Below, piece after piece: positions 5,211 to 9,856 of a stretch of DNA of 33,809 nt. The DNA lies in assembly GCA_024275565.1 (NCBI GenBank), contig JAJRYY010000232.1:1-33809 (forward strand). The letters run 5' to 3'. The stretch's first letter is position 1. Each line of letters opens with the position of its first letter. Under the pieces are notes generated by a model, which did not search any database, was not told the DNA's origin, and saw nothing but the letters and a program-made list of their open reading frames with translations. Source of the stretch: Planctomycetota bacterium. Its GTDB lineage: Bacteria > Planctomycetota > Phycisphaerae > UBA1845. Position numbers and translations under genes: made by a program.

Positions 5211-8200
5211 ATGTACAAGAACATACGCAGTGACAGGAATGCGGTTCGCATCGCGATCCTCGCAAATCTCATGCTCGTCACGATCACATACGCCGACGCA
5301 GTGACGAGCTATCCGCATATCGATTCCCAACTGCTCCAGGCCGACCCCAATGCTCAGAAGTTGTATTCCAACCTGGACGCCTGCCCCAACGGTGTAAAAG
5401 CGATCGCCGTCGGCGGGCGAACTACCATCAATGGTCCATCGCTTCAGGTGTTGGACTGGTTCCAAACCACAGGTGGACAGCTTTCAGCCGTTGAATTCTA
5501 CGCCGTGAACGGTTCACCCGGCGCAATCCCGACACATCTTAGCACACGCTATCATTCGGGCGCCAACGCGACGAATCTCGGGACGGAGATATTTGGTACA
5601 TTATTCCGAACGCATGCACAATCTTTCGGAGCTCCTCCACTAAGCATGTTACCAGTGCATGTCGATGCCGAGACCGGCGAGGCGCGGCTCATGAAAATTC
5701 GCATCGACTACGAGACAAAGCGTTACACCATTGTCGATGCAGAAACAGGCGAGTACCTCATCGACACAAATGGTGAGGGTCAGGACATCGGTACACGCCC
5801 TATTCCCATCCTACCGCCCGGTCCGGTCGGAATCCGCATACGATTCGCATCACAGTTCAACATCTGCGGCGGTGGAAATCCAACGGCTGGGATAGTTCTG
5901 GCAGGCGGTGGAACCGGAAACGAAGATGGCCTCCACATCGTCAACGCCGACGATTCCAACTGCGCACAGGAACTTGACGAGCTTTGCGACCTGCCCGGCT
6001 GGGATCCCTCCGACGGTTTCGGTAACGGCGAACCCTGCCCAGGCCGATCCGTCTGCTGGCAGCAGCGACCCCATTACGGACTGGCTCTGACCCTCTACGG
6101 TTCTCCCAGCAACGAAGACCCCGACGGCAACAATGAAATCGCAACGTCCGACGAAATCGTCGCCCCCGCACCCGATTCCGGAAACCGCGTCACCATCGCT
6201 GGATATCTCGGCGACAACGATCGACCATCGGGTTTTGGCCCACTCGCCCCCGCATTTGACGAAGATGCCGACGGAGATATCGACCTGCTCGATTTCGGAG
6301 TTTTTCAGAGTTGCTTCAACGACGATCTACAACCAGGTTGCTTCCGTCATGATGCAAACTTCGATGGTCTTGTGGATATCGTCGACTTCGGTGGCGAGAT
6401 CGACGCGGAACCCAACTTCTTCGATTGTGCAACGGGTGACATTTCCGCCCCCAACTTCACCGCCCCAGGTGTCGAATGTCAGACGGCTGTCCTGTCGGAC
6501 CCAGACATTCTGAAGGACGTGGACATCTATCGCATCACGAACCTCACGCAGGGCAACGTCCTCTCCATACTCGTTCAAGCCCAAAAGACCGCCACCGGGC
6601 AATCCCTCTGGAACCCCTATCTCCACATCTACACCAACAAAGGATTCCTCAACATACCGCTCGCCTTCTCCGATGATTTCCTGCCCGGAAGCTCCGACGC
6701 GTTCACAACCATCGAGATCCCGGATTCCACCACTGAAATCTTCGCCATCGTCAGCAACAGGGATCAGGCGATCTTCGGATTCGACCTGCAAACCCCCACA
6801 ACCATTCCCCCGATCTCCTCATTTGACGAGGGTGGCGACTACACCCTCACCATCGCTACGACTGATCCGCAATCTGTCCAGGACGATGAGAGCGGCGGAC
6901 CGCTCGACTGCTACCTCACCAAGCACGAACCCGACGACACCCTCGACGACGCCGACGCCCGAGGCGCTGCCCCATCATTCAACATCCGCGGCGCCATCGG
7001 CGATGGTGCATTCGCACCCATCGGGCAGGACGTCGATATCTACCGAATCGACCTTACAGGTGACCTCGCCATTGCAAAAAGTCTCACTGCAAGAATTGCA
7101 GTGTCAGCCTCGGGCTATCAGGCCGTCATCGACCTTGCATTGGCACTTTACGACAGCAACGGAATTCTCATCGCCTGCGCAGACCAGTCATCGACCTTCC
7201 CAAAAACCGAGGACACACGATCCCTCCCCCAGCTCGCAGCCAACGTGTCTGGCGAAGGTCCGGACGGGGATGGGGTATATTACTTAGCCGTCTTCGGAAC
7301 CAATCGAACCCTGTTCGTTTTCGACCCGCAGCATGAGCACTACCATCCGGTATCGCCAGCCACGCCGCCGACGATTCTGAGCTTCCCCCACGATAGCGGC
7401 CTGACCGGCACCGAGACGTCCGATAATCGGCCCCTGGTCGGAGGGCGCGCCAATATCCCCATGAATCGCCTCCAAGGCCGCACTCCCCCCAGCGATGGTC
7501 CGCCCGCCAGCTCCACCATCCAGTGCTACCGCCTCATCATCTCCCCGCAGATGACATCGATCCCGTCAGTGGGGATGAGCGACGAATCCGAACTCGTCAC
7601 TCCCGATGGCAACGACGCCATACCGCTCGCAACCCCCCTCACGACCCCATCCGACCGCCCGGCAACAGCCTCTGTCATTCAGGGGGTTTTAGGGAATGGA
7701 CCCTACGGCGGGTGGCAGGGTGATGTCGATTTCTACGAAATCGACGCTCAGCCCGGACAACTTCTTACAGCGTTCATCGCCGATAACGAGCAGCCGCCCG
7801 CGACCGAACACGGAATCCGCTCATACATGGCTGTCTATGATGGGGAGGGTCGAATCCTGGAAACTCAGGCATATTCCCTAGAAGCACCATACGATCACCC
7901 CGGACTGGTGGACGATGGGATTGCGAACGAGTTGGCAGCAAATATTGCAGTGTCACTTCCAGAGTCGCTCGACGGACCCGTCTACCTCATGGTCGGCATC
8001 GACGCGGGTAATCTCGAAGCCGGGGAAAACACCCCGTATGACCCCAATCGTCCTGGAACGACGCTCGTGCGGCGATTTGGGGCGGATATCTGGGCGCCCC
8101 GTACCTACAACCTAGCTGTCAGTCTGATCGACCCTGTTCTGCCGTCGCCAGACCCCCCTCGCCTTTTCGTCGTTCCCATCCACGGCGTCGATGACGACCA

Positions 8201-9213: not shown

Positions 9214-9738
9214 ATGGATCGAGAAAAACTGGCAGCACGCATCAAAGAGACAGCCTACCTCGAAGGCGAATTTACATTGCGCTCGGGCAGAAAGAGCAAT
9301 TATTATCTCGATAAATATCGCTTTGAAACGCGTCCCGACATACTGGCAGAGCTCGGAAAACGGTTCGCAGAGTTCGCCGGCGACACCACAACCCTGATCG
9401 CGGGCGCAGAACTCGGTGGCGTCGCACTGGCAGCCGCTACCTCCCTCGCGTCCGACCTCCCATTTATCATCGTCCGCAACTCGAAAAAGGGATACGGTGC
9501 TGACAACCTGTTCGAAGGCGTACTGGAGCAGGGAGCGAGCGTTCTGCTGGTTGAGGACATCGCCACCACCGGCTGACAGGTCCTCGAAGCCGCAAAAGCC
9601 CTCACTGAAAACGGTGCCACCATCGAGCGCATTGTGGCTGTTATCGACCGAGCAGAGGGTGCCCGCGAGAACATTGAATCCGCCGGATTCTCCTTCGACG
9701 CGCTCTTCACGAAAGCCGATCTCGGCATCGGAGCCTGA
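9214..9738 (+). pseudogene. pyrE: Orotate phosphoribosyltransferase, interrupted by in-frame TGA
   Basis: The frame reads as a 174-codon orotate phosphoribosyltransferase of the short (about 175-aa) type. This enzyme converts orotate and PRPP to OMP in pyrimidine synthesis. Visible family signatures are FTLRSGRKSNYYLDK (residues 20-34), a hydrophobic AGAELGGVALA segment (63-73), the flexible-loop region IVRNSKKGYG (86-95) and the PRPP-binding loop VLLVEDIATTG (110-120). The next codon (121, bases 9574-9576) is TGA where the family normally has Gly or Ser. The same frame then continues as convincing OPRT sequence (QVLEAAKALTENGA...VIDRAEGARENIESAGF) to a second TGA at 9736-9738. One substitution (for example GGA to TGA) explains it. 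Translated as read, the product stops at 120 aa and lacks the last third. It could be a true pseudogene or a sequence error. I consider genetic-code change unlikely because neighbouring genes end in TGA. Confidence 0.85.
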
Positions 9739-9751
9739 TGGGCGGACACTT

Positions 9752-9841
9752 ATCGATCACTCGTTGCTCGACCCGTCATCGCTCGATCACTCGTCGCTTG
9801 ATCGCTCGCCGCTTGACCACTTGCCGCTCGACCGTGCGCAG
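9752..9841. repeat. Degenerate 15-bp tandem repeat, six units
   Basis: Six consecutive 15-bp units of the form CTCGAtCactCGtcG run from 9752 to 9841, just after pyrE and before the convergent cytochrome gene. Units 3 and 4 are the closest match. In one plus-strand frame they would code for a SLDHS-like pentapeptide repeat, but no credible gene carries that frame. The function is unknown. Confidence 0.7.
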
Positions 9842-9856
9842 CGACTCCTGTTCGAT

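Follow-up and report, generated by a model that had tools for sequence, protein, structure and literature searches.

An in-frame TGA in the PRPP loop of a planctomycete pyrE gene is probably a consensus error of a metagenome-assembled genome

Introduction

A lone stop codon in a conserved gene of a metagenome-assembled genome (MAG) may be mistaken for a pseudogene, an auxotrophy or UGA recoding. More than 110 prokaryotic selenoprotein families have been reported, and the bacterial SECIS hairpin follows a rule that combines a loop of 3–9 nt, a G in the first two positions, a spacing of 16–37 nt and a folding energy of −7.5 kcal/mol or lower (PMC13188914). The words "orotate" and "phosphoribosyltransferase" are absent from this selenoprotein review, and our open literature search returned no paper joining orotate phosphoribosyltransferase (OPRT), selenoprotein, UGA and SECIS. 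The G>T change through ex vivo oxidation of guanine is a known artefact (PMC12390751).

Here we analyzed a stretch of 33,809 nucleotides (the window), which carries a pyrE gene for OPRT that is interrupted by one in-frame TGA. The window is contig C199 of an assembly of 4.40 Mb in 236 contigs with 95% completeness, and its nearest relatives identify the host as a Phycisphaerae-type planctomycete MAG. No other genome of the same genus was present among the relatives listed.

Results

The interrupted pyrE gene lies on the forward strand at 9214..9738 (174 codons plus stop), with an ATG start at 9214 and a terminal TGA at 9736-9738. In a profile search, TIGR00336 matched this frame with 126.4 bits, over its cut-off of 106.8, covering model positions 6-172 of 173 and spanning 9247-9720 with the single TGA within, and the Pribosyltran profile also matched. 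Furthermore, the 29 best relatives share 65-77% identity with the gene over almost the full length, and full-length homologues align both 5' and 3' of the TGA, which bears out the claim of the preliminary description that the OPRT frame is conserved around one TGA. The translation, together with alignments with relatives and solved OPRTs, also confirmed its placement of the TGA at the PRPP loop: the loop reads LVEDIATTG* (9547..9576, forward strand), and the TGA itself (9574..9576, forward strand) is codon 121, the final position of the TTG(G) motif, in the protein context VEDIATTG*QVLEAA. The gene thus departs from a complete ORF with an intact PRPP loop, as expected of PyrE, by the TGA at this codon. 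Imperfect 15-bp tandem repeats (9753-9842) occur immediately 3' of the pyrE stop codon. Among the other genomes, two near-complete members of genus g4, G003 and G033, lack this pyrE: G033 gave no match, and the sole match in G003 is a 523-aa frame with 31% identity. G047 has a full pyrE and, roughly 0.8 kb further downstream, another match (C211:8250-8426) that corresponds to the last third of the gene.

For every stop surrounded by an open frame, we scored the hexamer coding signal on both flanks. The pyrE TGA ranked first for a two-sided coding signal, with a score of 0.55 among 9,396 stops in 1.19 Mb of the genome, and in an enlarged scan that covered 1.93 Mb and 19,776 stops, none of the newly added stops scored above 0.47. 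The TGA is inside a coding frame and is not a chance stop.

We aligned the codon-121 column in 85 distinct relatives, mostly MAGs of Phycisphaerae and other Planctomycetota, and found Gly in all 85, encoded by GGG in 32, GGC in 20, GGA in 17 and GGT in 16 of them. GGA>TGA is the sole one-base route from Gly to this stop, in agreement with the earlier proposal of a single base change from a Gly codon. The accompanying statement that the residue is normally Gly or Ser came close: the relatives have Gly throughout, and the more distant solved OPRTs have Asn or Ser at this position.

The TGA had been taken as marking either a sequence error or a real loss. This pair of alternatives holds, but the side of genuine decay is weakened by the state of the gene and of the pyrimidine pathway. 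Of the 60 near-invariant columns of pyrE, no more than one deviates besides the TGA position (T96A), so that the gene either still works or lost its function very recently; judged from its sequence, it is not decaying. A second pyrE, which the preliminary description had suggested looking for, was not found in this 95% complete genome. The search for uracil salvage, which addressed UPRTase as distinct from uridine kinase and other salvage routes, gave no UPRTase over the cut-off in this genome, although it scored above that limit in 12 of the 14 genomes used as controls, and pyrF (OMP decarboxylase) is intact and without stops. Since there is a single pyrE, no UPRTase over the cut-off and an intact pyrF, a true null would need another salvage route. 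A real nonsense mutation that the sampled strain acquired very recently, either fixed or a population variant, is a possible but rather unlikely origin of the TGA; the cell would then rely on salvaged pyrimidines, or on a pyrE copy within the 5% that the assembly lacks. One base change would suffice for it, the 95% complete assembly may lack a second copy or genes for salvage, and the two g4 relatives suggest that a lineage can manage without this form of pyrE; against these points stand the lack of a second copy and of UPRTase over the cut-off, the retained pyrF and the absence of further decay in pyrE. It would also require several simultaneous losses in the same MAG, including GlmU, EF-G and others.

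Indeed, in the 1.93 Mb of the MAG that were scanned, lone stops interrupt no fewer than seven further conserved genes, partly judged by eye. A Peptidase_S9 gene has a TGA (L126:2394-2396, G000:C83) where six of six relatives have Gly, an EF-G gene has a TAG (L198:1690-1692, C54) where six of six have Ser, an MBL-fold hydrolase has a TAG (L234:10069-10071, C56) where six of seven have Glu, and a PstC-like permease has a TAA (L183:11730-11732, C7) where two of three have Ser. TAG codons further interrupt GlmU at a variable position (L121:11010-11012, C173), a lipid A acyltransferase-like gene (L261:12679-12681, C203) and a protein kinase (L267:16587-16589, C209). GlmU, PstC and EF-G were counted irrespective of second intact copies. 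In a control scan of 1.03 Mb from contigs of 80 relatives, which differ in composition and were scored with a pooled model, no clear interrupted gene was found, and the candidates were read by eye as adjacent genes or non-coding frames. Conserved genes of this assembly are thus interrupted by lone stops more often than those on the relatives' contigs, although the numbers are small and were judged partly by eye.

In all cases with an inferable lost residue, pyrE included, the stop is explained by a one-base G>T or C>A change, as reconstructed from the presumed ancestral codons of these few genes: GGA>TGA twice, GAG>TAG, TCG>TAG and probably TCA>TAA. Gln, Arg and Trp codons are the usual targets of transitions to stop, and no clear case of them was present among the lost residues. 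A MutY-deficient mutator was rejected: mutY, the gene covered by the mutator check (as distinct from Fpg (MutM) and MutT), is intact. The defect that classically produces a G:C>T:A mutator is thus absent, although a genuine mutator of this type may still be at work.

Taken across the genome, these similar lone stops speak for a sequence error, and we infer that they are sequencing or assembly errors rather than mutations in living cells. For pyrE, a consensus error of the damage type is the probable explanation, favoured because one base is involved, because the only copy of the gene shows no decay, and because changes of the same kind occur across the assembly. A single wrong base in the MAG consensus, a G read as T, would convert GGA into TGA; it may have arisen from guanine oxidation or from thin coverage in this short-contig metagenome-assembled genome, and in the living cells pyrE would be an ordinary, uninterrupted gene that encodes Gly at this position of the PRPP loop.

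Reading of the stop by the ribosome was considered in two forms. A leaky UGA, at which a near-cognate tRNA such as tRNA-Trp would read UGA-C at a low rate and still provide enough enzyme, is very unlikely. The next base is indeed C, a context generally considered leaky, and the downstream pyrE frame is fully conserved; however, no relative has a stop at codon 121, the inserted residue would fall in the PRPP loop, only a normal tRNA-Trp(CCA) was found in the scanned part of the genome, and since TAG and TAA also interrupt genes of the MAG, UGA readthrough provides no general answer.

Since the genome contains a selenocysteine machinery, the second form, UGA as selenocysteine with OPRT as a selenoprotein, had to be tested, although it was absent from the preliminary description. 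selA, selB and selD are all present, with selA and selB adjacent on contig C91, near the contig end. selD (L134:1531-1533, G000:C180) has its own in-frame TGA at the active site, YASCAGUAGK, followed by a hairpin that satisfies the SECIS rule with seven pairs, a GUU loop, a G at +34 nt and −11.9 kcal/mol. However, 16 of 60 codon shuffles of selD gave an equally good hairpin, so that the rule lends little weight to a hairpin that passes it and serves chiefly to reject candidates. In pyrE, no hairpin in the scanned stretch 3' of the TGA (9577..9648, forward strand) obeys the rule: the best candidate has a loop of 12 nt and reaches −3.8 kcal/mol, and it was equalled or surpassed by 57 of 60 codon shuffles. 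Folding in this stretch is weaker than in the shuffled controls (positive z-scores), and an Rfam scan of the region gave no SECIS, with matches at chance level only.

Furthermore, none of the 85 relatives, all with Gly, has Cys or Sec at the codon-121 column, and OPRT is not a redox enzyme. No selC was detected over the cut-off in this 95% complete assembly, nor any match to the selC of a relative, whereas the gene scored over the cut-off in 14 of 16 relatives and is highly conserved; it may well lie in the 5% that the assembly lacks. A tRNA-like gene at L129:7850-7933 (reverse strand, G000:C76), with anticodon TTA and a G replacing U33, is labelled tRNA-Stop by ARAGORN and lies directly upstream of another tRNA-like match (7786-7848); the Rfam tRNA-Sec model matches the former weakly (31.6 bits). 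Despite the selA, selB and selD genes and the rule-compliant selD hairpin, a selenoprotein OPRT is the least credible of the readings weighed here. General recoding of UGA was rejected, as TGA is common as a stop and the interruptions in other genes include TAG and TAA.

Discussion

The most likely ranking of the explanations places a consensus error first, a recent nonsense mutation second and translation of the UGA as a remote third. We hold it to be highly improbable that the pyrE UGA is translated, whether as selenocysteine through an atypical signal or by programmed readthrough, with OPRT output dependent on UGA decoding; if it were, a core biosynthetic enzyme would provide a selenoprotein or readthrough case. 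The selenocysteine system makes the wrong reading tempting in this genome, but the SECIS test and the genome-wide spectrum of lone stops argue against it. We favour a wrong letter in the assembled sequence, or at most an ordinary mutation of very recent origin, over a new reading of the code.

In comparison with known systems, the window gene resembles the PyrE described by TIGR00336 in its full-length match over the cut-off, its PRPP motif and its Phycisphaerae-type homologues, and differs by one in-frame TGA at the last Gly of the PRPP loop. It shares with a bacterial selenoprotein gene, represented here by selD, an in-frame TGA and a genomic background of selA, selB and selD; in contrast to such a gene, it has neither a SECIS nor a Cys homologue, and its TGA occupies a Gly position. 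With a G>T base error in a MAG, the gene has in common an isolated one-base change, intact flanks and several similar cases with the same change elsewhere in the assembly.
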